Positions 1 to 35,086 of a DNA stretch of 64,000 nucleotides are shown piece by piece. The notes under the pieces are model-generated. The model saw only the letters and a program-made list of their open reading frames with translations. It did no database searches and had not been told where the DNA came from. The translations under genes and the position numbers were made by a program. The stretch's first letter is position 1, and each line of letters starts with the position of its first letter. Source of the stretch: Melastoma dodecandrum (Eukaryota; Streptophyta; Magnoliopsida; Myrtales; Melastomataceae); NCBI GenBank assembly GCA_029817715.1, contig JARUPY010000397.1:4092001-4156000 (forward strand). The letters run 5' to 3'.

Positions 1-128
1 GACCGCTTGAATGAGAAAATGAGTTTCATTGTTACATTTATTTAGTAGACAACCTTTTCTAGCAAACACCTGTTAGGAATCCTTTCTTTGGGCATCTGTT
101 TGCATTCTGATCTACCATTTGTTAACAG

Positions 129-9515: not shown

Positions 9516-9989
9516 CCTTTTTTCCTCCAATTCCTTCTGCTAACAGATCATAATCAAACAAAATACGTCAAAAGAAGCATCTTCCTCTGCAAAAACCCTT
9601 TGCCCTAATCCCTTAATCAGCTCGAACAATCTCCCTTCCCACAATAACGACCCTTGGATCATCCAACAAGCGAGTACCTCCTCAATCGGAGATGCCGAGG
9701 GAGAGGGAAGCCGAGGATGTCAACTCACTCCGACGACGAAGGGGCGGAGGACGCGCCGGCGTCGCGTCGTCGTAAGAAGAACTCGGAGTTGGTGGATATG
9801 TAAAAAACGAGCCTTTGAATCGTCATGGGCTTTCAGAGGAAGTAATAATTGGGCAGAATTCTAGTAATGGGCTTTATGTTGGTTAGGCCCATGGGCCTTG
9901 ATCCGTTCACCAAGCCCCCCGCGAGGCACGCGAATATAGCGTTAGAATGAGGGCCTGAACACTTGAAACTTTTAACATCAATCTCACTA
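9516..9989 (-). promoter_or_regulatory. NRPB7 5' leader and promoter with TGGGCY (site II-like) motifs
   Basis: This region lies upstream of NRPB7 on the minus strand. Between 9825 and 9897 there are ATGGGCT (9825), ATTGGGC (9847), ATGGGCT (9867) and the palindrome GGCCCATGGGCC (9886-9897). TGGGCC/T motifs are site II elements bound by TCP factors and are common upstream of plant housekeeping and ribosomal genes. That they drive NRPB7 is inference. The MULE target duplication (9981-9989) ends this region. Confidence 0.55.
9981..9989. repeat. MULE target-site duplication, left copy
   Basis: The sequence ATCTCACTA abuts the left MULE end and is identical to 28596-28604 at the right end. Confidence 0.93.
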
Positions 9990-10242
9990 GGCGAATTATC
10001 GATATATGGCCCAATCAATAAGCCAACTTTACGCTTCGACGTATTTCAAAAGTTTTGAATTTGGCCTTATTTCAATTTTATTTTTGAATTTGGCACTATT
10101 CCTAACGGCCGTTTCTCTTTCGCCGTTAGACCTTTAGATTATCCGACGTGTCTTTAAACGTTTTATTTGTTTTTCTTACGTGGGCTACAACAACGAAATA
10201 AATCAAGAAGGGGGGTTAGGGTTCTTCTACGGAGGTGATTTA
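9990..10242 (+). repeat. MULE left terminal inverted repeat
   Basis: This starts GGCGAATT and is similar, with gaps, to the reverse complement of 28363-28595. The best-conserved blocks are around 10031-10082 (TTCGACGTAT, AAGTTTTGAATTTGGCCTTATTT) and 10215-10242. Confidence 0.88.
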
Positions 10243-10499
10243 GGATTAATCGATTGTTGTTCGATTCCGGGCCGACTGGGTTGTTGTTCCTCGATTCCGA
10301 CATCGTTCTTCCTCCCGGTTAAGTGGATCGTGTCTATTTCTTCATTTTGTAATGGTTGTTGTTTGTGTGGTTCTTACCTGGGTTTGCTTGGGTTGTTATA
10401 AGGGCTTGTTTCGCACACCTGATTATTCTTGATTGTTGACAGGTCAGAATGAAGAGCCTTTCAATGGACATGCATGTAGGTGGTGTAGTGTCGTAGGGG

Positions 10500-11597
10500 G
10501 GACAGATTTGAGTACGTTGGTGGTAGGGTGTTTAAATATGGCAACGTAGATTGCGATCTGATGGGCTATTTCACCTTGGTAGCATTTTTCCAAGATTTTG
10601 GTTGCAGTGTTAGGAAGATGTGGTATACTCTTACAGATGATAGTGTGAAGGAAATTTGTAGTGACAAGGATGTTTTAGAGATGTGTGATGCATATCCCGA
10701 TGGTTCAACTGCTAGTATTTATTGTGAAGGTACGATGATAGAGACGAGGTCTGACCATGAATTATTGGATGAGGACACTAGTCTTGATATTAAGTTTTAC
10801 TGACAGTGATGAGGATATTAGTCTTAGGCGTTCTGACAATGATGACAATGATGAAGGAGATGTGGGTATGTCAGAGACACAACAGGACTTAGGTATGCAT
10901 GATGTAGATGTACAGGAGAGGGTGGCTGGAATTTATCCTGAAATTGAAGATATAGAAGGTGCTGTTAATGTGGATATAAAAGGTTATGTAACTAATGAGG
11001 TTGAAGCTGATGAGGTTGAAGAATCTGAGTATGAGAAGTCAGATGAAGAAATGCTTCCAGACGACGGCACATCCACAATAGGGTCCATGAGGAAGAACTT
11101 GAATCTCAACTGAGTAACTATGATCCACATTGTGATCATAAGCAGATAAAGTTCAAGCTTGGAATGTGTTTTGAGACACCAAGGCAGATGCATAATGATA
11201 TACAGAGGTATGCCATTGCTAATGGATTCAATTTACATTGGAGGCGAAGTTCCAAAATGAAGTAGAAGGCTGTATGTGAACCTAGCTGTCCCTAGAGAGT
11301 TTATAGATCTTGGTTGAAGAAAGATGGGTCATTTGCGATTAAAAACGTGTTGAACAGTCACACATGTACACGTAACATGCAAAATAGGCAAGCTACTACA
11401 AAATGGTTAGCTGAACAGTTCGTGGAAGGCAATATAAGAAGAGTTGGTGCCATGGCGAAAGAAATTCACGATGTGGTAATGGAGAAGTACACCATTGAAG
11501 TTGGACTGATGAAGTGTTACAAGGCATGCTGGATTGCAGATGGATTGATGGTTGGTTCAGTGGATAATCACTTCAAGAAGCTTCGACCATATTTAGC
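10500..11597 (+). pseudogene. MULE transposase, N-terminal part (broken)
   Basis: Several frames together encode the front half of a MuDR-type transposase. First comes a small N-terminal domain (GGRVFKYGNVDCDLMGYF, about 10520-10800). An acidic linker follows (about 10800-11110). Then comes the MuDR DNA-binding region, with MCFETPRQMHNDIQRYAIAN, W-R-R-S and N-S-H-T-C (11150-11400) and a C-terminal RPYLA at the break. In-frame stops occur at 10801, near 11111 and around 11263-11295, so no full protein can be made. The reading is cut at 11597 by the hAT insertion and resumes at 25617. The family assignment rests on order and motif resemblance. Confidence 0.82.
11590..11597. repeat. hAT target-site duplication, left copy
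   Basis: TATTTAGC is identical to 25617-25624. It lies inside the MULE transposase reading frame, which is interrupted exactly here. Confidence 0.93.
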
Positions 11598-11852
11598 TAG
11601 GGCTGTTAATGAGCTGGTTCGGCTCACGAATTACCCGGCCCAGCTCGTCTCTTGGCCCGAGCCCGGATCGACATAATTCAAACTTTGACGGGCTCAAGCT
11701 CGGGTCTTATTTTTTGAAAGTCAAGCCGCGCTCGGGCTTATTTACTTATCCGACAAATTATCCGGCCCGGCTCGACAATTTTTATAATAAATATATAATT
11801 TAAATAAATATTAAGAAAATTAATTAAAAAAGTTTTAAACATTTCTTCTTCT

Positions 11853-13219
11853 TCATCGTTCTCCATCCATACTCTGAATCTTGAATTTGAGCGCGATGCA
11901 ATCCTTGGTGTCGTGCCCCAGTGCTCCAGAGTGATATTGACAACTCGCCTTGGGGTTGTAGCCAAAAGAGGAAGGGTTGGTCGGTTTGGGGTCCACGGGT
12001 GAGATGAAGCCCATGTCTCTCAGGCGGGTGAACATGACATCTAATGGATCGGGAGTCGGAACCAGGTCCTCCAATCTGCATCGGGGACGCTCTTGTCGTG
12101 CAGGCCTTGGCTGCTGGTGCATCATCACGGGAGCGGACGGTCTAGGATTGGCCGTCACAGGCACGGGGGCTCTACTGGTAACTGCGGCGTATGACCTCGG
12201 CGCATATGAAGTCGGCGGTGCCGCTGCTTTATTGTGCTCCGCAGCTGCGACGAGCACCTTGGGCTTTGGTTTGACGGCTGGCTTTACTGCAGGGGAGGGA
12301 ATAAGTCCTTCTCGATTGACTCCATCAAGTTTATCGGCATTAATGACTGCTTGGGCGAAGGTTGTGATGGTCTCACCAATCATATAAGGTAAGTACTCAC
12401 GCGGGAGAAGTTGGAAGAACTCATCTATCAGCTCCTTTTGTTTCAAAGATGGCTTAATCCGTGAAGCCAGCTCCCTGAACCGATAGGCAAATTGTTTTAT
12501 GTCCTCGGAGCAGTACCTTTTCAGTTTCCGCAAGTCTGATATCGTGGGTGCTATTTCTACATTGAAACTGTAGTAATTAAGAAAGTCGAGAGCCAACTCC
12601 CTGAATGTTGCGTACTGGCTCACATCATTGGTGTAATACCAGTGCAGTGCCGATTCCGCCAAGCTCTCTTGAAACATGGCAATGCGAAGCTTGTCATCTG
12701 CCGGGTACACAGCCATCTTGTGACAAAAGTGCTTGAAATGTAGCTCTGGACATCCGTTCCCTCGAAACTTCTCAAATTCAGGCATTTTGAACTTTGGTGG
12801 GATCTGAATCTGGGGAATCTGGTAGTCGGCGTACTCCCAGTTGTAAGCTCGGTGTCCCTGAATGGCGTTGAGATGCTCTTCCATTCTCGCCATACGACGC
12901 GCCTCTTCTTCTTGCATAGAGGCGATCTTAGCTTAGAGTCTTGTCTCGAAAACGTCGGCCTGCTGCTGTTCGCCAAACAGTTCATTCACGATAGCCGCGT
13001 TTCGGTTTCTTAGGTTTGCATGGCTGGTCCCGCCGAGGGCGTTGTGGACGGTATGGGGATCCCAAAGTCGGCAGTTGTAGGGGTGACAGGAAAATAGGGT
13101 GATGGCCCAAGTGGTGCTGATTGATAGGGAGTTGGCCCTGGTACGGTTGGTTGAGGGTAGTATGGTGGAGCAAATGGTCGTGTTACGGTGGACAATCCGG
13201 TCATGGTCGATTTCTGCAT
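11853..13219 (-). pseudogene. LTR-retrotransposon gag remnant (Ty3-like)
   Basis: The main ORF (12917-11853, 354 codons) has a gag core (LRIAMFQESLAESALHWYY, then a DLRKLKRYCSEDIKQFAYRF region) and ends with a zinc-knuckle-like CQYHSGALGHDTKDC. This layout matches the gag of plant Ty3-type (Tat-like) elements. A proline-rich N-terminal extension (13219-13010) lies in another frame, so a frameshift or stop separates the two around 12920-13010. No protease, reverse transcriptase or integrase follows; the coding sequence stops about 250 bp from the hAT end. It is a dead fragment. Confidence 0.75.
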
Positions 13220-13575
13220 AACTTTCTGCTCAATTCATGAAAATGTGCATATTTATACTTGGAAGAAAGCTCTTCAAGTCAGTAATCCAATAGTGTCAAG
13301 TTTCAAGTCAATCTAAGGTCTGTAACGAAAGTTATGAACGAAAGAGTAAGATGTCCACATGCAGATCCGAGCTCCGACAGTTTTGCTGCCTCTCATAAAA
13401 ACGTGTATAACTTTTAGCTTAGTTCACTAAAATAGGCTTACTTATACTCAAAACAAATCTCTTGAAGTCAGGCATCTAATGGCACAAGTTTTAGGTCAAT
13501 ACGATTTCTAGAAAGAAAGTTATGAATAAAAGAGAGAACTGTCGACATGCAGATCTGAGCCTATAAGTCTTCGGA
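13220..13575. repeat. Two imperfect tandem copies of a ~190-bp unit
   Basis: The block starting AACTTTCTGCTCAATTCATG at 13220 recurs from 13409. Shared segments include TATACT, CTCTT(C/G)AAGTCAG, AAAGTTATGAA and CATGCAGATC(C/T)GAGC. It abuts the putative gag start on its upstream side, so it may be the retroelement's leader or LTR-proximal region. Confidence 0.65.
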
Positions 13576-15072
13576 TTCTTCGAAAACACTCCATTCATAT
13601 GTAAATGCCATGTCATTTTAAAACCACTAAACATTTGTACATGAAACATCATATATAGCTAGTGTGACATGTTTAGAGTATATTTGAAGTTCGACATATG
13701 ACAAAAATGCAAATGGTGATGTCCAAACGTGCGAAACTCGGTCTTTTATAACCAGTACAATGTTTTGTTCGAAACTTCTAGGTTAAGAACTCAAATTTAG
13801 CTTAGATGGTGTCCTTAGAACCATATTTAAGTTAGGAATCAAATGCAAGTGGTTTCGCGCGATTCCGATAAGTACACAAAAAGATATACAGTAAAAACCG
13901 AAGATTGCGCAAACTGATCCGAAACATGCTTGGACTTACCGAGCTATTTTGGCTCGATGGGAGGGCTGCAACACATCCCAACATGCTAGGACGTATGAAG
14001 GGAAGGGGATGTGAGAGTCTTGGCCTGTTTTGGCGACCATAGGATGTTTCCGAGAGTTGGTTTTTGGCTGTCCAATCCTTGCGGCTGCGCAGACAAGAAA
14101 ACGTCAAAGCAAAAGGGGCCCCGCGAAGCTACGAGGTTACGAAAGGTGGTAGTTGAGTCCTCCTCTTCTTTGGACGAGGGAGGGCAGATCCTAGATGCCG
14201 GAGAGAAGGCCTCGAGCATGGAGACGGCGAGGGGAGGATGTCGGAGATTGTCCGGGGTTGCCGTTGTTTCTTCTTGCCGCAGCCGTCGACTTGTGAAACC
14301 GGAACGTGTCCTCCGCGGTTAGGCTGGTCGGGGGGTCTCCATTGCTCCATGAGCTTACCTTGGTCAAGAGGCTCGTCGGGAAAAAGGGGAGGCTCGAAAA
14401 ACGCTTAGAGGGGGGAGCTTTTTTTTTGTGTACGTCTGTCTTTCTTTTTTTTTTGTGTGTGCATCTCTTCTATATAGGAAAGTAACATTTGAAAGTCATA
14501 AAGTTTGCAAGTTGAAATGGGGGGAGCGTTTCCATCTATCCCTGCGTCTTCTGTAACGTGTGGATGTGCTCCCGTTTAGGAAGTAAATTTTATTTAATGC
14601 AATTACGGGAATCAAATGAAATATTTCTGAATAGGAAATGATATTTGAGGTATTACACATACGAAGCCCTCGAGAAGCTCATCGGATCACACTTAGGTTT
14701 TCTTTCTTTCTTTCAATCTCATGTTTGTGCATCGTAGTAAATCCGATCATGGACTAGATGCAACCTGCTGCAAGTGTGGTGAGTCTGGTTATTTTGTCGA
14801 GTGTCCCTGAATTTTTAGATGTCACAACTAGATGTCCCTTGCCCTCCAATCTCCCACCATCCCCGTCTCGTATGTTTCACCCGTTCTCCCCTATCTCCTT
14901 CACCTGGTCTACCCCTCCATTTTGTCTCATTCCCCCTCCCCTCCCACATCCATCCATGTCTCTCCCTCGTCCACCTCCCCTCCCCCATCCGTTCCGTCTC
15001 TCCGTTTTTTTAATGAATTTAATTTTTTTTATGTTATGTTTTCTTGGCTGTTATATATATATATTTTCCTAA
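13576..15072. other. No gene recognised
   Basis: This stretch contains short ORFs without family resemblance and a pyrimidine-rich tract (about 14840-15005). It may include part of the retroelement's LTR, but I could not define ends. Confidence 0.5.
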
Positions 15073-15289
15073 TTATGTGAATAGAATTGTGAAGATATAA
15101 TCTAGAAACAGAATAGAACATATAACTGTCACGGAACACAGAAGAAAGAAAATATTTTCTTTAAAAAACACTAGCCCAGAATGTGAAAGTAAAGCAGACA
15201 ATGAAGATGTTGAATGAATCTGATAAGTAGCACTCAAAGCCGAGAATTTATCCTTACATTTGTGCTTTTGGAAGGTTCCCCTTGAAACA

Positions 15290-15800
15290 CACCAGAAGGT
15301 CGTGAGGAATACAAGGAGAGCCAACACGGTCGAGACCAAGACCACCACAACCATTTTATGTCTCTTTCCTTTGGTATTTGCAGCCCAAGATCCAGAAAAT
15401 CTTCAAATGACCTAGGATATCAGAACCAGAACAGACACCTTATAGACACTTGGGACATTAAGGAAGAGTTTTGTCCATCGTCCTAGGTTCAATATGCTAA
15501 TTGTTGCAACGAACTTAGTTGTGGTGCTTCAGAGCTTAAGCATAATGCAGGCACATACCTAGTGTAGAAGCCGGATATCGCATGAACAACTCCTGCCCTT
15601 CTTTAACCTCTCTGAGATTAAATAGGCTTCCATACCAGACACTGCAACCATTAATTTTGGTTACCGCATAAGCTGAACACAGACAGTTACTCAAGCGCGC
15701 TCTTGCACATTCCCCCGTACCCATGATGTTCGTGTTCGTCAGAAACTGTGACCTGTCCAGCAACTTCAGACCTGAAAGTTTCTTAAACACATCTTCTCAT
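15290..15800 (-). pseudogene. S-domain receptor-kinase fragment: PAN domain and transmembrane exon
   Basis: The segment about 15785-15562 encodes a PAN/apple-like piece (FKKLSGLKLLDRSQF, GECARARLSNCLCSAYA, then CSVWYGSLFNL) ending at a GT donor after TLG. A second segment at 15354-15290 encodes a hydrophobic helix (VVVVLVSTVLALLVFLTTFW) followed by basic residues. These match the end of exon 1 and exon 2 of the intact copy at 18231-21412. The lectin domain and the whole kinase are missing, so it is a relic. Just upstream (15800-15935) is a block resembling the 3' untranslated region of the intact gene. Confidence 0.75.
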
Positions 15801-16660
15801 GATGTTTTACTACACAAACGAGCCCCACTCTCACTGCAGTGTTTCGCATGGCATCCCCCCGAGAATGCCATCGCTGGGATTTGTCCCTGCGTCTTCTTTG
15901 ATTTACCTAAAGACCTTCGACTATCCAAATGCGTTTACACTGTATAATTTTGGTCGTGGTATTCATTCGAATAGAATATAATCGACAAGTGAAATAGAAT
16001 CTAGTCGACTATATCTACAGAAGCAAGTGGACGGTCAACTGGGTTTACAGATGCTAGTCGACCTTGCCTGCAAAAACCAGTTGACCATGCCTACAAAATC
16101 CAGTCGACTATGTACAGAAACCAATTGAAGAATAAACCAATCTCCAGAGAGTCCGAATTAATGTGCACATGTTCATTTGTAATGGATATAATGGCTCCCT
16201 TTAGAATTCAAGCACGTGGAAGCACTTGCCATGACAGTTATCGTTGGTAAGTAATAATATTATTAGCATATAAGATTACGATATAGTATAAATAGTTTAA
16301 TATTCTTTGTAATAAAACAGACAATCACTTGTTCACATATCACGACATTTTGGTTGTCTTTGTTTGCTCTCATCTCCTTCTTCGTTTTTATGTCTTTAAA
16401 TTTGTGTTGTAACTCAAGTTTAAAATCAATAGAAATATGTTCTTCGTTTAATTTGTTCAATCTTTGCCATTATTTCCTTTTCTTGAACCCGATGAGTTCG
16501 TCACATTACAACATGTTACGGTTTCCTTCGTCAACAAAATGATCGCTTGGTTAACAGAAGTGGCGCCATCACTGGACGAATGGTCGGTGGTCCCCATGTT
16601 GTTCTTCTTCTTGATTGTGTAGGCGGGCTGCCGCAGCGACGCAAGGATCATGTCATTTCC
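15795..16660 (-). pseudogene. S-domain receptor-kinase fragment: kinase C-terminal tail and 3' UTR
   Basis: The stretch about 16655-16530 encodes a tail ([19 protein letters not shown]) nearly the same as the last residues of the intact receptor kinase ([16 protein letters not shown]). The following 3' untranslated sequence continues at 15935-15795 (CGAGAATG, TCTTTGA motifs shared with 18130-18240). An unrelated block of about 590 bp, with a short tandem array, separates the two pieces. The copy is truncated. Confidence 0.7.
16003..16135. repeat. Degenerate ~23-bp tandem array with GTCGAC cores
   Basis: About five units of the form AGTCGACYWTGCCTACARAAACC stand in a row, some changed to AGTTGACC or AGTGGACGGTCAAC. 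They lie inside the block that splits a receptor-kinase 3' untranslated region. Confidence 0.65.
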
Positions 16661-17210
16661 ATTGCATATTCCGGTGACCTACCAAAGAAGAGGTTCCGGC
16701 CATTACCCATTTTTGCAGATTGACTTCGGGGAATCATAATCAAGGTCATTCATGCATGCAGATGAGGTGGGAGTTGGAATTTAATGCGCATAAGATGTGG
16801 TTGAGCCTCTTCATGATACACCAGCTCCATGGACCAGATAAATATCTCAAGTTACCAACAACAGGGGAGAAAACAACCTGTCGGATGCGTCGATATCATT
16901 ATTTTGGCTTGGCCTAGTCGCGAGATGCAAATAGACGTGCATCGGTCGTTGCGAGTGTTACGGTCACAAAACGTCGATAGGATGTTTATAGCTATTTCAT
17001 GTCGAAGAGGGATATCCCGGTGTTATGATCGAAATTGATTCATTGTGCCGTCCTATCATTTCTCATTGACACCTCCTCTGGAATGCATTCACTCTTATAA
17101 CAGACTTTGATTGGCTTCGAAAAAAAAAAAACAAATGCTGATGTCGATGCATTTCGTACCAGGCATTCAACTAAAATCGTAAATAATATCATACTACTTG
17201 GGTCAAATTA

Positions 17211-17702
17211 TCAAATATCAACTAACGGCAGCCTACGTGTCATCCTACGTGTGACGTTGATGGCGTTCGCCGTCATCCTTAAAATTCGCAAGACAAGGTT
17301 CCCTGAATCCAAAAGCTGAATTACTGGGCTAGAACTACTCGCAACCAAAGTCGAGGAAACGTTGGTGGACCAGAGAAGGGCACTTCCGTTTTGTCTGCGG
17401 AGGACTAAATCATCCCGAACATCAATCGATAGAGCTCCAGAGGTGTCGCAGAGGGGATTTTCCCTATTGGCGACCCAAACGACAGTTTGAACAGGAAGTG
17501 CTGCGTACCATATCCCCACAAAACGTCGTCCGGAGTCACCGGGGCTGAAGAAACCAAACGCGAACTTACCCCCATGGGACACCAACAGGTCTCCATCTTT
17601 GAAGCTCTGGGAAGCTCTCAACGTATCCGATGACGAAGAACACGTCCAAAACAGGGCTAGGAAAAGGAGAACGGAGAGGGACATGTTCAGATCACGTAGC
17701 AT
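17211..17702 (-). pseudogene. S-domain receptor-kinase fragment: signal peptide and bulb lectin
   Basis: This encodes a signal peptide (MSLSVLLFLALFWTCSSS) and a B-type lectin domain with GKFAFGFFSPGDSG, VGIWYA and [11 protein letters not shown], then LLDSGNLVL. Homology stops at about 17300, where the sequence becomes unrelated and a stop follows. No S-locus, PAN or kinase part follows in order. It is closely related to the intact neighbour at 18231-21412 and is a truncated duplicate. A secreted lectin-only protein is conceivable but there is no evidence for it. Confidence 0.78.
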
Positions 17703-18230
17703 AATTTAGGAGATGATGGATAGAGACAAGAAAGTTAAAAAGGAGTGAACCTCGGCGTTTCATCCTCTCCGCCCAGAAAATTCGAAACTAGTTCCAGGTA
17801 GTTTTCGTAGTGATTCGAGTTAGACCGGCCATCTGAAGACGACCGATTGAGTGAAGAGGTCGTGAGTTCAATATTAAACCGTGATTTAGGTAGGATCTGG
17901 AAACTGCTGGAGAAAATGTTGTTTTTCTTTCTTACTAATTCAAAGAACCCTACAATTCACAAGCATGTCGTTGTCGAGTAATCCCAGGACGAAAGTAAGG
18001 CGTAGACGACGTAGGAGTAACGCCAGGCATTAAGGCTCACAAGTCTAAACGATTAGGCTGCCCCATTTTGGTCATCAAATCATTCCTGAATAAAATAGTT
18101 GGCCATAAAATGTCCTGCATCAAGTTTTCATGGCATGGTGTTTTACTACGCTAACGAGCACCACTCTCACCGTAGTGTTTTGCCCGAGAATGTCATTGCT
18201 GGGGACTGTTCCTGTGCCTTCTTTGAGTGC

Positions 18231-21200
18231 CTAACGACCTTCGACGATGGAAATGGTCGCTTGGTTGACAGAAGCGGCGCTATCACTGGACGAATTGTTG
18301 GTGGTCCCCATGTTATTCTTCTTCCTGATTGTGTATGCGGGCTGCTGCGGCGATGCGAGGCCCGTGTCATTTCCCAGCATGAATACGACAGTGGACATGG
18401 TTGGCCGGTCTGTCGGAAGCTCTTGCACGCACAGCAGACCGATCTGGATGCATTTCAGCACCTCTTTCCATGAATGTGGTTCATCAACTGCAATCGACTC
18501 ATCAATGATTTCCATGCATCGTCCTCCCTTCCATAGCTCCCAAAACTGCCGAAGAAGATGAAAGGTTGATTTGGTTTTGGTATCGTGCTAGATAGTATCA
18601 AACGGGATGAACCATGATGCAATCAATCATCCTAGTCCTTCAGCCAGATCAAGATTCGCACGACTGTTGTTTTAGCATAAGGGAAGTGGAAACTCACATG
18701 GCCGACTAAATTTGTGGAGGAACCCTCGTCGTAGTATGAGCTGATTTTCTTCCCCGAGATGATCTCTAGCAGTAAGATCCCAAAGCTATAAGCATCCGAC
18801 TTAACTGAAAACACCCCCTCCATCGCATATTCCGGAGACATATAACCACTACACGAAAAGAAAGAGCAACCAAAGGATATCACCGTCAATGGCTTTTGGC
18901 CAATGTTCGGACAACAACATAAATTCACACTTACAATGTCCCAACCACTCTGTTTGTAGTTCCTTCGGACTGGTCACCCCCACACATTCTAGCCATCCCA
19001 AAATCAGATATCTTTGGCTGCATTTCAGTGTCCAGCAAAACATTGCTTGCCTTCAAATCTCTGTGTATAACCCTAAGCCTGGAATCTTGATGCAAGTACA
19101 TCAGCCCTCGAGCGACCCCGGTCAGTATGTCAAAGCGTATTCTCCAGTCTAAAAGAGATTTCTTTGATTTGTCTAAGCAAATAGGTCCAACCCAATTTGA
19201 CAATATCAGCTAGCCTATAGAGAAATGCGGCACAGATATCAATCAGTTATGCAAGTCTTACCAACTGAAAACTTACCGAAGAGGAATGCATCAAGGCTTT
19301 TGTTTGGCAAATATTCATAGACGAGTATCTTCTCATTATCCTTGAGGCAGAATCCTAACATCCTAACGAGGTTCCTATGCTGGAGCCTGGCAATCAAGTT
19401 CACCTCATTCTTGAACTCTTCATCTCCTTGTCTGGAAAACTCGGACAATCTTTTTACAGCAACTTCGGTTCCGTCACTCATCACTCCCTTCATGCCAAGA
19501 AAATATCTCTTTGTTAAGCTGTTAATATCATCCTGATCTGAGCCTGAGAAGGCCAAAGAAGAAAACAGATTCAAAAAATTACCTTGTAAACAGTTCCGAA
19601 GCCGCCAACGCCAAGCCTGTTTGATAAGGAGAAATTGTCCGTGAAAGCAGCGACTGAGCTTAGTTTGAAGGATGGCAGCCCTGCATCTGATTTGCTTGTT
19701 CGATCGAGTTCCTTGGTGTCCAGAGGTTTGGCGACACTTGAAGGATTTTTGGGAGTTCTAGGCCACAGAGCAGGCAGCCTCCTACCGCCTGTTGCAATGC
19801 TAGAGTTAACGGTTTTGCACGTGCAGAAATGCCTTCTGATTAAACTGTCATCGAAATCACTACCCTTCATCGGGAAAAGTTCAGGCCAGCATATGTACCT
19901 CTTCTGTGCCTTATAATTAGTAAGACAAAGACTAATACTAGCAAAACTGCAGCGGCCAATACCGGCAGCATTATCTCCGGTATGACTTTCTTGTTCCCAT
20001 TCCGGCTGTTCATCTTCGTGTCCCGAGCTTGATATCAGAAGGAAAATATTTCAAATAAGTAGAAGATCTCTGGCTGAAGGGAAAGTAGTGAGTTTGCTAC
20101 ATGCACAGAAGTAAATGGCTGAAATACCTAACTCAGCGGCGTCCACGCGGATATATATCTGTTGACCGTTGTTAAATGTTCTAGTGTCATTCAACTCCCC
20201 ATACCACATGAGGCACCCAGAACCTCCTCCGCTTTCAGTCGCACTGGCATATGCCGTACAAGAGCAGTTCCTCAGGCACGCCGACTCACACTCCCTTAAA
20301 GTCATGGTCATGTTGACTTGTGCAATGGAAGTATCGGGCAACTTTGTGTTATTTATGCCGACGAAACCTTCTCCACTTTGACAGATTGAAGCCCCCGTGT
20401 TTCTTACACACCCACCGGTCGTGTCCTTCAATAACCAGTTGTTCGGATACCTAGGTTGGAATCCGGGAAAACATGAACACGTATATAGGTCGGCCTTGTA
20501 TGGATCGCACAGGCCATTTGGTCCGCATTGGTTATAATAGTCACAAGGTTCTCCCGGAGCAGAATACATTGGCACCCACCGATGTTCTTGCTCTATCCAG
20601 TTCATCCGGTCAATAGTACCTGTTTCATTCACCACAATTGTTGATAGAATCGAGGTGTTGATCATGATGTATGTGATCGAGAATTCATCTCCATCATTCA
20701 CAAAAAAAATGTTGAAGACGTAATTATTTCTCATCTCGGGTATACCACTCCACCGTGACCCGGTCCAAGGCCCTGTTCGCCAATGGGGTGCCCCGTCCTT
20801 GTATAAGAACAACTGAGGGTACCCGGTTGGATTGGCCATGAAAGTGCAATTTCCTGGCCGTGGATCGTCATAGGACCTCCATGATGTTATAGACCACGTA
20901 CGACTGCTCGTCTTTTTATAGCCAATTTTCATATTAGGAAGCATGGTGTCCGTAGGATGATCGAAGCTCTGCCAAAGTATGACCTTTTTGTCAACATCCT
21001 GGTACAAAACCAGGTTGCCAGAATCCAGAAGCTGAACCACAGGACTAGAGTTGACTTCAGCAGGCAGCAAGGAATTGTTGGTCGACCACACTAGGGATGC
21101 ACTGTTATTGCTGCTGATTATGAGATTCCCCAACGAATCTACAGACAGAGCTCCCGAGCTGTCGTTGAGGGGATTCTCTCTGTTGGCGACCCAAACAACA

Positions 21201-21412
21201 GTTGGCACGGAAACTCTGGCATACCATATACCCAAAAAGCGTTGCCCTGAGTCACTCGGGCTGAAGAAGCCCAAGACAAAAGTCCCCCCGACAGAGACCA
21301 ACACATCTGCATCTCTGAAACTTTGGGTAGCATCAAATGTGTCCGACGACGAACCTGACCAAAGCAGAGCTGATAAAAGGAGGATTAAGAGGAGCACAGT
21401 CTCGTTTCTCAT
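18231..21412 (-). CDS. S-domain (G-type lectin) receptor-like kinase, apparently intact, inside the hAT element
   Basis: This is a plasma-membrane receptor kinase of the SD-1 class; the family includes SRK and immune receptors such as LORE. Seven exons (21412-20128, 20027-19899, 19788-19583, 19487-19277, 19172-18935, 18848-18698, 18545-18231) join in frame to 844 codons plus stop, the canonical seven-exon SD-1 structure. Residues 1 to about 25 are a signal peptide. A bulb lectin ([11 protein letters not shown]), S-locus glycoprotein region, EGF-like cysteines ([13 protein letters not shown]) and PAN domain follow. A transmembrane helix lies near 440-465. The kinase has GVGGFG, Lys552 in [12 protein letters not shown] (Asp649), DFG (Asp667) and SPE. 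A tail like that of other SD-RLKs ends the protein. All catalytic residues are present. The exon 3 acceptor is the least certain boundary. The ligand is unknown. Confidence 0.88.
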
Positions 21413-21985
21413 GTTTTCACCCCTCAAAAATGAATCCTGAAAGCTGGGAATAAAAAATCTGGCGGAAGACCTGGTCAATATGAATAATCCATGCTGCTTA
21501 AAGGATGGGATCAATGGGACCTTCAAGGTAGATAGGACTGGGATTAAGATCAGGGAGGATGTGCAAGACCCGGGAGGTATAAAAGAAAAGAGCATAGAGG
21601 GCGAATGGACGACTTTTAGGAGGATGGACGCAATCTTGACCTCGCATATAATCAATTGGAATACAAGTGATAAAAGTCTTAGCGGGTCATCCGGCATCAG
21701 GGAAAAAAACCAAAATTGACAAGCAAAGCACTTGCCTCTGGATCAAGTTTCCTCCAGAAGATGTCCTTTCCGCTATTGCAACATTAACTAGTAAATAAGT
21801 CGCTGTTTCTCCTGCCACTTTCGCAAATAGTCGTCCTACCAGGAAGAGCAGGCGAGGCACGTCCGTTTTCTTCCATGCCCTCGATGTAGAAAAGTCCAAA
21901 CTATGGAATGTTTGAATGAACTGTCTTGCTATGTGCACGCGTTTTGTGCGATTAAAATCTTACTACGACTGAAATTTCATGCCTT

Positions 21986-23126
21986 TCAATATAACATTTC
22001 AAGTTGCATCACGTTTGAAATGTGTAATGGACTCTCGACAAATAAGGAAGAAGAAGAAGAATAAACGAAAGAACACTCTGAAATCTCGACTACTCTCTTC
22101 GTTCTTCCATCGAACTGGTCGCCCCTGCATATTCTACCCATACCAAAATCTGATATCTTCGTGATCATCGCATCGTCCAGCAAAATATTGCCTGCCTTCA
22201 AATTTCTATGCGTAACCCTAAGCCTGGAATCATGATGCAGGCACATAAGTCCCCTGAGCCACCACAGTGATTATGTTGAAGCGTAGTCTCCAATCTAAGA
22301 CATATTTCTTCGACTCATCTGAGCACAATTGCAGAATCCAATTCGTTATTGTCAGACAAGACAACAAAACCAATTCCAAAAATTTGACGAGATGGAAATT
22401 TACCAAAGAGGAACGTGTCGTGGCTCTTGTTTGGCAAGTACTCACATGTGAGGATCTTCTCAATATCTTCAAGGCAGAATCCCAACATCCTAATGAGGTT
22501 TTTATGCTGGAGCTTGGTGATCAAGATCGCCTCATTCTTCATCTCCTTGTCTGAAAGCTTCAGACAATCTGTCCACAGCTACTTTAGTTCTGTCGCTCAT
22601 CCCTACCTTCATGAAAAGAACTAATCTCATTGCTACACCGTTCATGTTGTCTATCCTTGACTCAGGAACGGAGAAAGAAAAGATATTCCATAATTACCTT
22701 ACTGACAACTCCAAAGCCTCCAGCGCCAAGCCTACCGTAAATGGAGAAATTGTCCATGGCAGCGACTAGTGAGCTTAGATTAAAGAAAGGCAGCTCTGCA
22801 TCAGATTTGCCTTTTCGATCGAGCTCCTTCATCTGTGAAGAATCAGCAACATGCAAAGAATCGTTGGGAGCGCTGGGCCACAGAGACAGGTGCCTCCACT
22901 ACCTGGTGCAGTGCTGGCAGTTAGCAATATGCTCACACCACAGATCACCCCAACAAGCCTTCTGATCGGATCGCTGTTCGGCATTCTTACCTCTTGTATG
23001 CCTTATAAAACTAGTAACACGGAAACTAAGCCCCCTGATGCTGCAGTGGCTAAGCCCAACAGTATTGTCCAAGGCTGGTTTTTCTTGTTTTGTTTCCAGC
23101 TGTTTGTCTTTGTATGGCGAGCTTAA
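21986..23126 (-). pseudogene. S-domain receptor-kinase fragment: transmembrane to mid-kinase, broken
   Basis: Reading from 23126 downwards there is a decayed transmembrane exon (about 23110-22990). A juxtamembrane and glycine-loop exon follows (22940-22700; KELDRKGKSDAELPFFNLSS, GAGGFGVV). Then comes an N-lobe exon ([16 protein letters not shown]) and an exon with [10 protein letters not shown] and [14 protein letters not shown]. The catalytic HRD is changed to HRN, and one base is missing or extra near 22245, so the exon shifts frame. No lectin part and no C-lobe exons are present. It is a sister of the intact gene at 18231-21412. Confidence 0.8.
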
Positions 23127-23520
23127 GAACAGCAGGAAAGGTCAGTAGGAGACTTTGCATATAGATCGGAAAATTCTCAGCCTGACAGGCAACCCAAGAT
23201 TAGTGTACCAGGTCACCCACTTTGGATGGCACCAACAGAGGCCGTTAAGTTAAGTGGTCCATGGCGATGATATTCCCAAAGCCTAGATGCATGAACAGCC
23301 TCGGTTTAGATTACAACTCTGACGCCTGTTGGTTAAGAATCAGGACATGCGAGGTCCAAAGATTAGAACGAACTACGTGTCAAAAAACATTTTACAGTCA
23401 AGCTTCACATGAATGGAGGGACATTTCTCAAGGAAATCGAAGGTTTCAATCCAAAGGCTCCTCTAAATAGTACCAAAAATGGAAGATGTCCTTGATTACA
23501 GATAGCTTTCGGGAGGGTGC

Positions 23521-23727
23521 CCTTCCGACCTTATATGCACACCACAGCCCAGTCTTAGGGATACCACGTGTAACATATAGGCCGCCCATCGCGTCAACGA
23601 TATTGTCCCGCATCCCCACGCACGGGCGGCTACGGTCGGGTTTTGTTCTTCAACCCCGGGCTTAGGGCGAAAACGCGTCGTTGATAGAAGGGCACCCCTT
23701 CCGACCTTATATGCACACCACAGCCCA
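23521..23727. repeat. 31-bp direct repeat flanking a short repetitive block
   Basis: CCTTCCGACCTTATATGCAC plus eleven further bases occurs at 23521-23551 and again, identical, at 23697-23727. The interior is GC-rich and looks like a dispersed plant repeat. It lies between two receptor-kinase relics. Confidence 0.6.
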
Positions 23728-23869
23728 TTCTCCCTTCCGATGTGGGACTCTCGAGACTCACCCTTCTATTGGGTTGGGTGATGGAACCCACCTTCAAAGG
23801 CTTCTCCCTTCTCTTGGGCTGGGGATATTACAGATCATTACAACCATCAAACTCAGGCCTGATGACCTG

Positions 23870-25277
23870 CTACCTGCCCTGCAACATGGAAATGGTCATG
23901 TCATTTGAAGCACAAGTTCGACCACTGGTGGAAGAGGATTCCTCTCCAGTGGGAGATCCCCCGTTGTAATATCCGGGTTGCTTGGGCTTGGGAAGCATAG
24001 GGTTCTCGGTGTCCGGCATCACCAGCACCGATGACATGGATGGCCTGTCCTCCACCTTCTGTTGGACACAAAGCAGGCTAACCTAAATACATCTCCGTAC
24101 TTCGGCTAATTCTGATGCTGATTTCAGTGTTGCTTGTAACGATTGATCCAGAAGCTGTGTCGGCTTCCCTTCATTCCACAAGATCCATCCCTGCAGGGCC
24201 CGAAAACACCACAAATGCTAGAACTGTTAATGGTTCAGAAAAGCTTCTACTGGGATTGAATGAGAAAGCTCCTCAAAAATGCATACGTGTGCGAGTATAT
24301 TCATGTCGTGGAAATCCGGATGATAAAATTCCCTATTTCTCTTGCCGCTTATGATCTCCATGACCAGCACACCAAAGCTGAATACATCGGATTTCATAGA
24401 GAACCACCCCTTGACAGCATACTCGGGTGCCATATATCCACTGAATGAAGCAAAAAAATGGTGAACAATGGGTTGTATAAGAAAAACTTCCATAACATTC
24501 CATAATTGTCTGAAACGATAAATCGGGAAGAAGCTAGCTAACTAAGTGCCCATGATCCTGTTTGTTTTTTCGGTCGTCCGGTTGCCATGAAAACTTCTTG
24601 CCAGGCCAAAATCGGATATTTTCGAATTCATTTCTCCATCCAGGAGAATGTTCCCTGCCTTAAGATCCCTATGTATGATCCTCAACCTCGAATCCCGGTA
24701 GAGATACAGAAGCCCTCTTGCAATCCCGATTATAATCTCAAAGCGCTCCTTCCACTTGGGGGAAGTCCCTCTTGTTTGATCTGTCAAAATTTTGTGGAAT
24801 GATTTTCCAGGTAGCAAGGAATATGTTGTCAAAACTATAGCTTATTTGATATCTTTCGCTACTGACTAACCGAAGAAATAGAGATTGAGACTAAGGTTGC
24901 ACATGTACTTGTATACAAGCATCCTCTCTCCCCCATGGATGCAACAACCCAACAACCAGACGAGATTCAGTGCTGAAGCTTAGATATCAGAATAACTTCA
25001 TTCTTGAACTCCTTCAGCCCTTGTCCTGATTCCGGGGACAGCCTCTTCACTGCAATGTCTTGTCCGGTTGACAGCTTACCCTGAACACCAGACTTACCAT
25101 TAAAAAGTAATTTCCTGAAGTTAAATTTAAGTGATTCGGCAAGATTACCTTATACACTAGGCTAAAACCACCTTCCCCGAGCTTATTGGAAAGGGAGAAA
25201 TCGTGGGTGGCTTCGCTCAGTGTTGCCAGATCAAATAGGGGAAGCTCTACATCATCTCCCTCAAGGCTAAAACCCAA
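23870..25277 (-). pseudogene. S-domain receptor-kinase fragment of a second subtype: kinase only, broken
   Basis: Exons encode a glycine loop ([30 protein letters not shown]; 25260-25150), [20 protein letters not shown] (about 25090-24990), [20 protein letters not shown] with DFGLAR (24740-24560), [18 protein letters not shown] (24450-24300), and a C-terminal tail ending at TAG 23870-23872. The HRD and DFG motifs are kept. However, the frame shifts after LQH near 24975, and an in-frame TAG stands at 24083-24085 where the family has RCIHVGLLCVQ. The extracellular part is absent. Its sequence differs more from the intact gene than the other relics do, so it comes from another SD-RLK lineage. 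Confidence 0.8.
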
Positions 25278-25616
25278 GTCTCATTCTGGTTGAGTCCATT
25301 TGGGACCTGGAAAATTGTTGATTAGAATTTGCTTGGACAACCACGTCTTGTGAGGAATTTTTTTAGAAGATTCTACGATTTTCAATATTTATCAAATGTT
25401 AAGAATGATTAAATTTAGAAAAAAATTGAGGAGATTCGGGCTAAGATCATCCTCAGACTCGGACTCGGCCTAAAATTTTTTTGACGGGCTCAGGCTTGAG
25501 CTTGACTTAACAGAACCCGATCAAGCTCGGACTCAGGCTCAAGCCTGATAAAATTTTACTCGGGCAGAACTCAGATAGGAGGTGTCCGAGCCCGACCCGG
25601 CTCATTAACACCCCTA

Positions 25617-25624
25617 TATTTAGC
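25617..25624. repeat. hAT target-site duplication, right copy
   Basis: TATTTAGC, identical to 11590-11597, follows the right hAT end ...AACACCCCTA. Confidence 0.93.
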
Positions 25625-27018
25625 TGCTTTGAAGAACAAATATTCGGGAAGTTGTTTTGAGCTGTCTTGCGATTAACACTATCCACAGGACTACACACAA
25701 CTTTTAAAAGATTATCCATAGGATTTGTGGCTTTGATTAAGGGATTCCTTATAGGCTGCAGACATGTTGTTGGATTATATGGAACTTTCATAAAAAACAA
25801 GGTTGGACGACTCTTATTGTCTGCTGTAGGACACAACGAGAACGATGGCATATACCCAATTGCATGGGTTGTGGTGGAAGGAGAAAACCAGAATTCATGG
25901 CGGTGGTTCCTTGAAATACTTTTCAGAGAATTACATGTTGGAAGTGGGCATGGTTGAACTTTCATTAGCGACCAACAAAAGGTCTGTTCTTGCAGTGTTA
26001 TTACTATGTTTTTGAAATAGCCCGTTCTAATAATTTATTATTGTCTTTTAGGGTCTGGTAAACGCCATTAGCACTCTTGCACCTAATGCCGAGTTAAGGA
26101 ATTGTTCAAGACACATATACCAAAATTGGAAAGTGAAACACAGAGGTTTATTCCTCAAGAGTTGTTTCTATAAAGCCGTAAAATATACAAACGAAGTTGA
26201 CTTCAACATTACCAGGAAGAAAATGAAATTTGGAAGAGATGGTGGCCCGAGTCCCTTCAAGTTGTTGACAATTTCCAGAACAAGGTCCTCATCATTTCTG
26301 TAAGGTTTTTTTCAATTGTTCTTGCAAGTGCGGTACACATAGTAACAACGTGTGCAAAACATTCAACTCATATATTGTTGCCGCTAGAAGATTACCTTTA
26401 ATTGACATGTTAGAGCGCATTAGACGTCTTTTACTGGTGAGACAATTAGAGAAGAAGAAGGCTGCTGCTAGGAGAGCTGATGTAGTCACACAACATGTCA
26501 GGAAAGAAATAGAGAGTATGAAAAAACATGCAGCAAAACATGTGGTGAAACCATCCATTACTGAAAAATTTGAAGTTTCTATGTCTTTGGCCTGATCAGA
26601 TAGGTTCTTAGTTGACCTAAATGCCAGAAGTTTTAGTTGTAGATTTTGGAATTACATGGAATTCTGTGTATACATGCATTGTCCCTGTTTCAAGATGGAA
26701 ACATATCGACAAGCATACATGCATGTTCTGGAACCACTAGAAGGCAACAAATTCTGGCCAGAGATAGAGGGCAATCCAATTAGGCTACCTCCTTTTAAGA
26801 AGTTGCCTGGAAGACCTAGGAAAGATAACAGAAAGAAAAGTAAAGAGGAGGACCCAAAGACAAATTCAGGTCAGTTGAGTAGAAAGGGACTTGGCATGAA
26901 ATGCAAACTGTGTGGCAACTGGGGACACAACAGGAGAACCTGCAGAAGACAACCATCATCTCAACCATCGACACAGCCAGTCAATTCTCAGTCATCCCCA
27001 TGTGAACAGTCCACATAA
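25625..27018 (+). pseudogene. MULE transposase, catalytic and C-terminal part (broken)
   Basis: This continues the transposase interrupted at 11597. The MULE core reads KGFLIGCRHVVGLYGTF and then LLLSAVGHNENDGIYPIAW with VVEGENQNSWRWFL (25720-25925). In active MULEs the first motif is GLDG with a catalytic Asp; here it is GLYG. A stop follows HVGSGHG, and later parts shift frame: HIYQNWKVKHRG (about 26110-26145), a helical stretch (26350-26595) and a decayed SWIM-type finger (VDLNARSFSCRFW near 26610-26655). The C-terminus (26656-27018) has a PGRPRK motif and a zinc knuckle, CKLCGNWGHNRRTC. The gene is dead. Confidence 0.85.
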
Positions 27019-27551
27019 GCTGTAGAAGCAGAGTTCATTTATCGGGATTATGGTATGTATTAACAGCCCTTATTATATGTTTTTACATTCTTCTAAACAT
27101 TATATATATTTTGTACTATAGGTTCCGGTCATTACTGAAGAGTGAAGGGTAAGTTGTGTGGCAAAAAATGGCATAATAGGAAGACTTGCAGCAAGAGAAG
27201 GGGTGTAGGTCCCTGTCAAGCAACTGAAACTGGTGAATTGATCCCTAAGCTTGGACAACCCTGAATGGATGAGATTGGACAACCCTTTTTTTGATAATAC
27301 ATTCTGATTGTATGGACAGGTATGGCTGATCTTTTGAATTAATGTATGGACATGTATGCCTGAACTTCTGCATTAATTCTGTTGAATTAATGTATGCAGA
27401 GATTTAATGTATTAATGTATGGACATATTTATATATTAATTATGGTTAGACAGCTTGATGGATTAATTCTGCTGATCTTATGGTGAATCAATCCATTACT
27501 GAAAACTTCATTAGAGTACAATCTGATGTAATAATAACACAACAACTATAT

Positions 27552-28030
27552 CAGATTAAAACCACTACAACAAAACTCATCAACTTTAAATCTTTATCTA
27601 ATTTTTTCATCTGCAACATCTTATACTTGATCACCTCAGTCTCTTGATGCTTAATTACATCTTCAGATTGCCTCTTTTGCATCATCTCAAGCTTACCTTC
27701 TAACATCTTTTTCGTCTCAACAAGGTGCGATATTATTTCTTTCTGGCGAGGGGGTATAAGTTTGTCAAACTGGGTGAAAAAGCCACAATCATCGTACTAT
27801 TGCAAACAAAAAAAAAATGCACCATCACATAAATCGGAACATCAGGTACATTTAACCATAAACAGATAAAGAAACAACAAGTACAGAACTTTCCCCATTG
27901 GACAACGAAAGAATCGTCTCCCTGGATTACTTCTACTCCAGGAGGCGCAGCCCATGTTTGCACCTTCTTTCACTAGTAACAGAGCTGGAATTTGCCGAGA
28001 CAGCACCTGTTTCAAAGCTCTCGCTACGAC
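27552..28030 (-). pseudogene. Reverse-strand GRF zinc-finger/coiled-coil ORF of the MULE (decayed)
   Basis: On the minus strand, about 28000-27905 reads CKHGLRLLE and, one frame over, NPGRRFFRCPMGK, a GRF-type zinc-finger core. After a likely intron, a clean exon (27800-27552, TGA at 27554-27552) encodes YDDCGFFTQFDKLIPP and then a lysine/glutamate-rich coiled coil. The downstream exon keeps its frame, but the first has stops or a frameshift. Small antisense GRF proteins of this type are often found next to plant MULE transposases, whose partner role is not well known. Confidence 0.6.
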
Positions 28031-28362
28031 TCATAATTATCAACCTGTATATTTAACAATAACAATGAATAACACATATACATACGAGCGTAACATTTTG
28101 GAATCATAAACCCAAAACCTCCAAACAACCCATTTAGAAAACCCGACTTAAAAACCCTTACGTAATCAAGAAACTGACACAAACCAGACAAACTACCTAT
28201 TCAGATAACCCTACCCAAGAACCCTTACAAAATCAACAAACAAACAATGAAGGAATCGAGGAACATGAACCAAAAACCAAGGAAAAGAGGAATTCGAGGA
28301 ACCCTAACCCTAACCGAAATACCCGAAATCGAGGAATCGAGGAATCGAGGTCCTCTGTCCCA

Positions 28363-28595
28363 GATCACCTCCGTAGAAAAACCCTAATCAAGTAGGAAAA
28401 AAAAGAGCCGTTAATTTATTTCGTTGATTATATTCTATGTAGGAAAAAAAAGACCACTTAGGAAAGAGAAAAGAGACCTTAGAAACACGTCAGATAAACA
28501 AAAAAGCTAAAATAAGGCCAAATTCAAAACTTTTAAAACGATACGTCGAAACATAAAGTTAACATATTTATTAGGCCAAATATCAAACATTTGCC
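28363..28595 (-). repeat. MULE right terminal inverted repeat
   Basis: This is the counterpart of 9990-10242. It ends ...AAATATTTGGCC / GCC and is followed by the 9-bp target duplication at 28596-28604. Just inside it (28290-28350) stand CCCTAACCCTAACC and repeated GAATCGAG units. Confidence 0.88.
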
Positions 28596-28604
28596 ATCTC
28601 ACTA
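28596..28604. repeat. MULE target-site duplication, right copy
   Basis: ATCTCACTA, identical to 9981-9989. It lies 133 bp past the SLU7 stop codon. Confidence 0.93.
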
Positions 28605-28736
28605 TTAAGAGAAACCTGGAAGAACCCCTGTATTTGTTTGTTACATTTCATTCAAATGCCAGCTTTCTTCATCATTCCACACGAACAAGAGAAGGTCTTT
28701 GGTATTTTACTCCCTGCCACCCCCTTCTTAAGGTTT

Positions 28737-34657: not shown

Positions 34658-35086
34658 TTACGTGCACTTCTTGCCGGATTTGTCCTCGAAGTCCAGCATG
34701 TCCTCCAGCACCTCGTCGTCCAGGCACTCGATCTCGAACACCCCCGACCCTTCTTCCCTTCCACTTCCCCTGCCAGCCTCGCTTGTCGAGGACGGAGGCT
34801 CTCCTCCACGAGCGTACTCCTCGGGGAAGTTCAGGACGGCGAGCGAACCCCTCATCGCGTAAGCCGACCTGTCGTAGGCCCTGGCGGCCTCCTCAGGGGT
34901 GTCGAACGTCCCCAGCCAGACTCGGGTCCCGTGCCTGGCGGAGTCCCTGATCTCGGCCGCGTACTTCCCCCAAGGCCTCTTCCTAACTCCCCTGTACTTC
35001 TTCTCCCCCTCTCCCTTCTCCTGCTGGCCTTTCCCTTTACGACGACGGTCGCCGCCTCCTCCTCGGCTCCCCTCCCCCTCCTCCAT
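34658..35086 (-). CDS. Small ethylene-response factor (AP2/ERF, group IX-like)
   Basis: A single-exon nuclear transcription factor of 142 residues. The AP2/ERF domain (about residues 30-90) has [27 protein letters not shown] and the [19 protein letters not shown] helix. The Ala and Asp positions of the beta-sheet are ERF-type, which bind GCC boxes (AGCCGCC). The acidic C-terminus with [19 protein letters not shown] resembles the EDLL-type activation motif of the short ERF95-98 (group IXc) proteins, which act in ethylene, jasmonate and defence responses. The N-terminus is glycine- and lysine-rich. A likely TATA box stands near 35162-35168 and a cluster of TGACG motifs further upstream. Subgroup placement is inference; ERF class is firm. 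Confidence 0.92.

Follow-up and report, generated by a model that had tools for sequence, protein, structure and literature searches.

The window, by which we mean the whole 64-kb stretch of DNA analysed, contains a 14-kb block that is probably (at a probability of about 0.78) a single slice of a receptor-kinase cluster, brought in by hAT mobilisation from what would have been another chromosome. Transport of the slice is considered likely because the block has hAT ends and an insertion footprint, lies within the gene of a Mutator-like element (MULE), and holds one intact receptor-kinase gene together with the remains of its relatives. Coordinates of all features are given in Table 1.

Table 1. 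Features of the hAT-ended block, its cargo and the surrounding sequence in the window
Feature	Position	Strand	Details
Block with hAT-type ends	11598..25616	.	14,019 bp; TIRs, TSD, motif-rich ends
Left TIR	11598..11622	+	22/25 bases identical to right TIR
Right TIR	25592..25616	-	Pairs with left TIR
8-bp TSD TATTTAGC, left copy	11590..11597	.	Exact
8-bp TSD TATTTAGC, right copy	25617..25624	.	Exact
MULE (Mutator-like element)	9990..28595	+	Inverted ends; 4,579 bp without insert; split by block
MULE 9-bp TSD ATCTCACTA	9981..9989 (left), 28596-28604 (right)	.	Exact, beside MULE ends
Retrotransposon gag ORF	11853..12917	-	PF03732, E 5.4e-6
Receptor-kinase remnant A, PAN domain region	15539..15862	-	tblastn E 2e-7; PAN_2 E 7.7e-11
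Receptor-kinase remnant B, 3' end fragment	16538..16660	-	tblastn 76% over 41 aa; direct repeat D3
Receptor-kinase remnant B, 5' end (lectin part)	17289..17699	-	Protein matches
S-domain receptor kinase gene	18231..21412	-	7 exons, 844 codons, intact; Pfam domains, homologs
Exons 1-4 of intact kinase gene	21412-20128, 20027-19899, 19788-19583, 19487-19277	-	
Exons 5-7 of intact kinase gene	19172-18935, 18848-18698, 18545-18231	-	
Receptor-kinase remnant C	22088..23122	-	Frames broken
Receptor-kinase remnant D	23873..25253	-	Begins at third exon
ERF gene, synteny anchor	34658..35086	-	Matches MLD38_025050 of M. candidum at 97%, next-best M. candidum protein at 75%

The terminal inverted repeats (TIRs) start with TAGGG and could be aligned over 25 bp, 22 of which were identical; the hAT end sequence of the block is TAGGGSTGTTAATGAGC. 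With up to three mismatches allowed, the TIR core was matched twice in the whole window, by TAGGGCTGTTAATGAGC at 11598-11614 (plus strand) and TAGGGGTGTTAATGAGC at 25600-25616 (minus strand), both of which are block ends. The expected number of matches was 0.13 from 100 shuffles, one of which likewise reached two. Target-site duplication (TSD) lengths of 3 to 11 were tried at the block edges, and a match was obtained at 8 only. An exact 8-bp TSD was present in one of 17,132 AGGG/CCCT-type end pairs lying 0.1-30 kb apart, and this was the pair of the block; approximately 0.3 were expected from base composition, and shifted flanks gave a mean of 0.37 and a maximum of 2. Pairs having both the TIR match and the TSD of the block were expected approximately 1e-6 times. 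The TAGGG inverted ends and perfect 8-bp duplication around 14,019 bp reported in the earlier note were thus recovered, with an exact TSD.

GGCTCG-type hexamers were most frequent in the two 125-bp bins at the ends of the block (8 and 5), with 3 in the next-best bin of the window and a mean of 0.16. These motif-rich subterminal regions lie inside the TIRs, on the left before the gag ORF at 11853 and on the right before exon 3 of remnant D. Short (C/T)AGGG-type TIRs and repeated subterminal motifs at both ends are hallmarks of hAT elements; a transposase is a feature of autonomous members only, and non-autonomous members need none. In the available text of the sources, the hAT TSD is given as 8 nt (PMC8903248) and repeated subterminal motifs are named for Ds (PMC3260210). 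The block has the 8-bp TSD, (C/T)AGGG-type TIRs and subterminal motifs of a non-autonomous hAT element. Since inverted similarity between its two ends extends over only 25 bp, their assignment to the same family is based on TIR, TSD and motif richness. No hAT transposase was detected among 65 stop-free segments of at least 55 aa in 12918-16540 and 21700-25616. Inner TIRs were not found in the window, and no further copy of the two ends was found there (nucleotide search with both ends, and a by-eye check of a motif-bearing stretch at approximately 37.4 kb). Rfam returned nothing at gathering scores for 9000-29000.

The element that received the block was classified as a MULE from its inverted ends, 9-bp TSD and MULE transposase domain. 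The domain (PF10551) was detected by Pfam on the right flank of the block; no MULE domain was detected by Pfam in the left piece. When the block was taken out together with one TSD copy, the MULE transposase frame became continuous, reading LRPYLA followed by ALKNKYSGSCFELSC across the site. Of 30 MULE protein homologs, 27 were without a gap within 15 columns of the insertion site; P0247 and P0269 are partial at the site, and P0258 has 5 gapped columns. Both edges of the block cut through unrelated genes. The locus as a whole is flanked by an SMC-like gene and SLU7.

The middle gene of the block has six GT..AG introns (6/6) and an open frame of 844 codons plus stop. Pfam domains B_lectin, S_locus_glycop, PAN_2 and kinase were detected in its product, with DUF3403 under the Pfam cut-off. 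The kinase motifs, including SPEYA, are present, and the ectodomain matches SRK8 and SRK9 structures 6kyw and 5gyy. Lectin, S-locus glycoprotein, PAN and kinase parts in one protein identify an S-domain receptor kinase, and the earlier description of an unbroken, seven-exon SD-RLK with its catalytic residues was upheld by the introns, domains and motifs. The "immune-type" label previously attached to it would derive from family resemblance, and both expression of the gene and its use as a receptor are predictions.

The remainder of the cargo comprises remnants of at least four relatives, on the same strand as the intact gene. At E 1e-3, every receptor-kinase match that tblastn gave across the 64-kb window fell within the block. 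In remnant C, the catalytic Lys is replaced by Asp and HRD by HRN, and the last two exons are unmatched; remnant D contains a frame change and an in-frame stop, and its DUF3403 tail is intact. Only 255 bp separate the end of the gag ORF from the left outer end of the block, which leaves no room for a pol part. For the 3' fragment of remnant B, the best matches are the intact gene and that gene's sisters in M. candidum. The 5' end of remnant B has the highest identity to MLD38_016779 (85% over 40 aa) and the highest bit score to MLD38_012125 on a third contig (76% over 116 aa). Because the two parts differ in their nearest relatives, co-linearity of the block with its source cluster is weak. 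The position of the block inside a MULE, the gag ORF and the additional remnants were absent from the earlier note.

Proteins encoded in the window very closely resemble their Melastoma candidum counterparts. The protein sister of the intact kinase is M. candidum MLD38_025044 (tree support 100/98), and MLD38_016778 stands next to this pair (100/100), agreeing with the window gene at 800/844. MLD38_025044 agrees at 424/428 in exon 1, 8/43 in exon 2 and 366/373 in exons 3-7. That it is a different protein was ruled out, since its deviating stretch results from a different frame being read through intron 2 of the same DNA. MLD38_016778, 016779, 016787 and 016789 are clustered on one M. candidum contig, apart from that of MLD38_025044. 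Placement of the receptor in a family tree, proposed earlier as a way to a donor locus, led to close relatives (MLD38_016778 to 016789) clustered on another contig, and these point, at the protein level, to a donor elsewhere in the genome. The ERF orthologue MLD38_025050 is six tags from MLD38_025044, apparently on the same contig. The proposal that a receptor travelled as transposon cargo is favoured by the exact TSD, the TIRs, the motif-rich ends, the target gene that reads on and the relatives clustered elsewhere. An intact receptor gene was indeed among the cargo, but the single gene then envisaged is replaced by a cluster slice.

Loading of the cargo would have preceded the hAT insertion. 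The slice would have come to be flanked by two hAT ends, located in or next to intron 2 of gene D on one side and in or next to the gag gene on the other; these positions are suggested because gene D and gag are both cut approximately 250-300 bp from the outer ends. The inner hAT ends would then have been lost, as the failure to find an inner TIR suggests, so that a hAT transposase acting in trans would take the outer pair as one element. Supply in trans is proposed, no transposase having been found inside the block in the segments scanned. For mobilisation by an outer pair, precedents are described in maize macrotransposons and in the Pack-TYPE model (excerpts of PMC8903248, PMC3260210). The element would next have inserted into the MULE, where the duplicated TATTTAGC is seen. 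The middle gene has stayed readable and its companions are broken; use as a receptor would be a further, predicted step.

Rather unlikely is a course of events in which a short non-autonomous hAT element (approximately 500-600 bp) had inserted into the MULE and later suffered an internal double-strand break, repair of which brought in approximately 13.5 kb of filler copied from the kinase cluster, the genes never having been moved by hAT. Break repair with gene-bearing filler is described as a known route of gene movement (PMC3445842), the two ends joined would make a short hAT of normal size, and entry of the cargo carries no date relative to the hAT insertion. Two independent events would, however, be required, and both borders of the filler would have to fall inside hAT sequence only some hundreds of bases long, whereas with hAT carriage a single step accounts for the cargo as well as for the TSD and TIRs. 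It is improbable that one hAT copied the slice by post-excision gap repair (transduplication) and then inserted into the MULE; transport would be the same and loading alone would differ. Maize Ds gene fragments with donors on other chromosomes have been discussed as products of such repair (PMC3260210), and no inner TIRs are present, but the captured pieces described in that text are fragments, and a 13-kb multi-gene slice suits two flanking insertions better.

The earlier note had named a chance TIR/TSD match as a refutation. An accidental match at a locus where the kinase cluster is old has a very small probability and was rejected on the end-pair counts and the MULE reading frame, which resumes exactly at the TSD; confinement of receptor-kinase matches to the block likewise stands against it. 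In its favour, the same ERF gene has MLD38_025044 nearby in M. candidum, so the window's genome is not alone in having the receptor gene at this locus.

If the block was carried by hAT, the move of the receptor gene was probably not recent, because the gene found near that ERF gene in M. candidum is near-identical; it would predate the split from M. candidum if the window's species is a different one. The gene has undergone 11 changes since diverging from MLD38_025044, and these show no significant avoidance of conserved sites (P 0.14; 79/118 homologs); the 36 changes setting off the paralogue MLD38_016778 avoid conserved sites at P 0.0001. V709A occurs in the window gene alone, at a valine 99% conserved in outgroups. 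It is a doubtful extension that the hAT ends carried a working cluster slice, with introns and flanks, to a new chromosome and that the middle gene retained a receptor role as Melastoma radiated. If true, transposon carriage would be a natural way of founding new receptor loci.

Receptor-kinase clusters vary in place among related plants, and how whole genes leave them is hard to see afterwards. Here the ends of the vehicle, its footprint, the interrupted target and a likely source cluster are all readable, which makes the route open to testing in living Melastoma species. Where plant DNA transposons have captured genes, these are described as usually fragments or pseudogenes (PMC13317346; PMC3260210, in part), and among the matches listed in the literature searched, none was a plant hAT carrying an intact receptor gene. 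The known range of captured genes would be broader if it included a seven-exon gene preserved whole between hAT ends.

In maize Ac/Ds macrotransposons, which are hAT elements, the outer ends of two elements move the intervening DNA, as proposed here; up to 100 kb is reported, mostly nested retrotransposons (excerpts of PMC3260210). Unlike in these, no inner ends were found in the block, its cargo is a kinase-cluster slice with one intact gene, and a near-identical gene is at the same M. candidum locus. Pack-hAT/Pack-TYPE elements of rice and maize resemble the block in being non-autonomous, with an 8-bp TSD and host DNA between hAT ends, and their loading model invokes fused neighbouring insertions. 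Pieces in the worked examples (PIF, Mariner) measure 58 to 280 bp (PMC8903248, passages available), whereas the block carries approximately 13 kb, in which several remnants accompany one seven-exon gene that is complete with its introns. In fungal wheat pathogens, ToxhAT is likewise approximately 14 kb and has an intact cargo gene enclosed by terminal inverted repeats, but it is fungal, has a hAT-like transposase gene and 74-bp TIRs, had no TSD identified by its authors, and was transferred horizontally (PMC6737239); the block is from a plant and has an exact TSD, with no transposase found in the segments scanned. The hAT-amplified histone H3 of Pseudocercospora fijiensis is also a host gene between hAT TIRs with an 8-bp TSD, and its copies are described as intronless, inactivated and numbering hundreds (PMC6710886, in part), whereas one block with introns kept is found here. 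The domain order lectin, S-locus glycoprotein, PAN, kinase is that of S-domain (G-type lectin) kinases of the RKS1 or At1g11410-like group, and Myrtales proteins so named (P0036, P0039, P0059, P0060, P0077, P0119) match the intact kinase at 52-56%. Compared with S-domain receptor kinases generally, the protein is ordinary and its location alone is unusual.

The TIR pattern, sought across the whole window with three or fewer mismatches allowed, was matched twice, precisely at the two ends of the 14,019-bp block; shuffled sequences gave an expectation of 0.13. The 8-bp flank TATTTAGC is identical on both sides, and this is the only pair with an exact 8-bp duplication among 17,132 AGGG/CCCT-type end pairs 0.1 to 30 kb apart. 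Before any TIR match was required, chance predicted approximately 0.3 such pairs from composition and a mean of 0.37 from the shifted-flank control. Both ends are also the window's peaks of GGCTCG-type hexamers. The 14-kb hAT element proposed in the earlier note was thus borne out. No hAT transposase was found in the 65 stop-free segments of at least 55 aa from 12918-16540 and 21700-25616, where matches over Pfam cut-offs were receptor-kinase pieces. Transposase would have been supplied in trans.

The block is flanked by the two halves of one MULE. Excision of the 14,019 bp plus one duplication copy left a 4,579-bp sequence in which the transposase frame was continuous over the insertion site. 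Homologous MULE proteins (n = 30) were gap-free within 15 columns of the site in 27 cases, partial there in two, and had five gapped columns in one. Together, the halves, the continuous frame and the gap-free homologs argue strongly for insertion of the block; the MULE came first, then the hAT block. In the right flank Pfam recognised a MULE domain; it named none in the left piece. The transposase gene has stops and frame changes at several places besides the hAT site, and therefore was or became a pseudogene. The MULE itself is complete: its inverted ends have diverged (496 columns in a gapped alignment), and its 9-bp duplication is perfect. The neighbouring genes resemble SMC (weak Pfam match) and SLU7 (Pfam), placing the nested transposons between two housekeeping-type genes. 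Further right, several ORFs share out a sequence that we take to be phosphate-transporter-like, perhaps a pseudogene.

Coordinates of features in the window
Feature	Position	Strand	Basis or remark
SMC-like gene	1-7741		weak Pfam match
MULE	9981-28604		9-bp duplication ATCTCACTA, exact, beside inverted ends
MULE inverted ends	start 9990 and 28595		
hAT block	11598-25616		TIRs, 8-bp duplication
Remnant A	15862-15560	-	tblastn
Remnant B, two pieces	16660-16538 and 17699-17289	-	tblastn
Receptor gene	18231-21412	-	intact
Codon 709	18791-18793	-	V709A
Remnant C	22895-22088	-	tblastn; to 23122 by weaker match
Repeated stretch	23500-23790	-	TGGTGTGCATATAAGGTCGGAAGG, two copies
Remnant D	25253-23873	-	tblastn
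SLU7-like gene	29810-30376		Pfam
Transporter-like ORFs	32067-33296	-	
ERF gene	34658-35086		synteny anchor

An intact S-domain receptor kinase had also been claimed inside the element, and the gene held up: 844 codons in seven exons, introns with GT..AG borders, lectin, S-locus glycoprotein, PAN and kinase domains (Pfam), and the kinase motifs. Its first exon matched the ectodomains of SRK8 and SRK9, for which structures are solved. Immune receptors are known among the S-domain kinases, RDA2 being one. Eleven changes were counted in the gene since its split from Melastoma candidum MLD38_025044; judged on 79 of 118 homologs, they did not significantly avoid conserved sites (P 0.14) and so gave no clear sign of selection since the move. 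In the kinase SDVYSFG motif, V709A is confined to the window gene; valine stands there in 99% of the compared outgroup proteins (79 in the alignment).

Relatives of the receptor protein, sought by tblastn (E 1e-3) over the whole window, were confined to the interval between the hAT ends, all on the minus strand. There are at least four remnants if the two B pieces are read as one internally deleted gene. Remnant C no longer has the catalytic lysine or the HRD aspartate, and remnant D has one frame change and one in-frame stop. On the left a gag ORF stops 255 bp short of the outer end; on the right remnant D, by reading of the sequence, starts at its third exon approximately 300 bp before the outer end. 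Both block edges therefore run through unrelated genes. The repeated stretch lies near a GAGTCCCACATCGG motif and may be what is left of an LTR or TRIM inside the cargo.

Among the best 120 of 3,422 matches, the closest proteins were Melastoma candidum MLD38_016778 (800/844 identical) and MLD38_025044 (exon 1, 424/428; exons 3-7, 366/373). The public 025044 model (P0002; compare window 19789-20027) reads exon 2 in another frame, in which the translated window DNA is identical, and retains intron 2; consequently, a transmembrane stretch within the coding capacity of this DNA is missing from the annotated protein. A tree was built from 26 proteins (the window gene and 25 of the 120 matches listed); in it the window gene paired with 025044 (100/98), 016778 joined next (100/100) and other Melastoma genes stood apart. 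Synteny and donor were assigned from protein names, tags and contig sizes, not from DNA comparison. 025044 and MLD38_025050, to which the ERF gene of the window is 97% identical, were assigned to one contig (size 24,490,725); with tags six apart, this puts receptor and ERF genes close together in M. candidum too. The receptor gene thus appears syntenic there, a point against hAT carriage. If the window, probably from a Melastoma, represents a species other than M. candidum, relocation would predate their split; M. candidum and M. dodecandrum are dated 1-2 or 4.6 million years apart in PMC9911893. This age argument would fail if the window were a second M. candidum haplotype. 016778, 016779, 016787 and 016789 were assigned to another contig (size 20,127,000), a candidate for the source chromosome. 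By identity, the 5' fragment of B was closest to 016779, which neighbours 016778 (85% over 40 aa, the annotation's whole overlap); by bit score, it was closest to MLD38_012125 (76% over 116 aa), which lies on a third contig. The 3' fragment was most like the intact gene and its sister genes. Co-linearity with the 016778 cluster is therefore suggested at most.

In the most likely route, a slice of the cluster came to lie between two hAT ends, and the outer pair would then have been mobilised as a single element, with the cargo probably loaded before insertion. Such loading by two flanking ends is proposed for Pack-TYPE elements in PMC8903248, and PMC3260210 cites a Ds/Ac macrotransposon moving up to 100 kb. 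Gap repair within one hAT element is a near alternative. The main rival is a short hAT that inserted first and was filled later, since no feature here dates the cargo; filler repair is treated in PMC3445842.

According to PMC3260210, filler derived from genes is rare in hAT elements, and what it describes are fragments; captured fragments are usually non-functional according to PMC13317346. The literature searched yielded no case of a plant hAT that carries an intact receptor gene. Nearest to the block in size and logic is the fungal element ToxhAT, 14 kb (PMC6737239).
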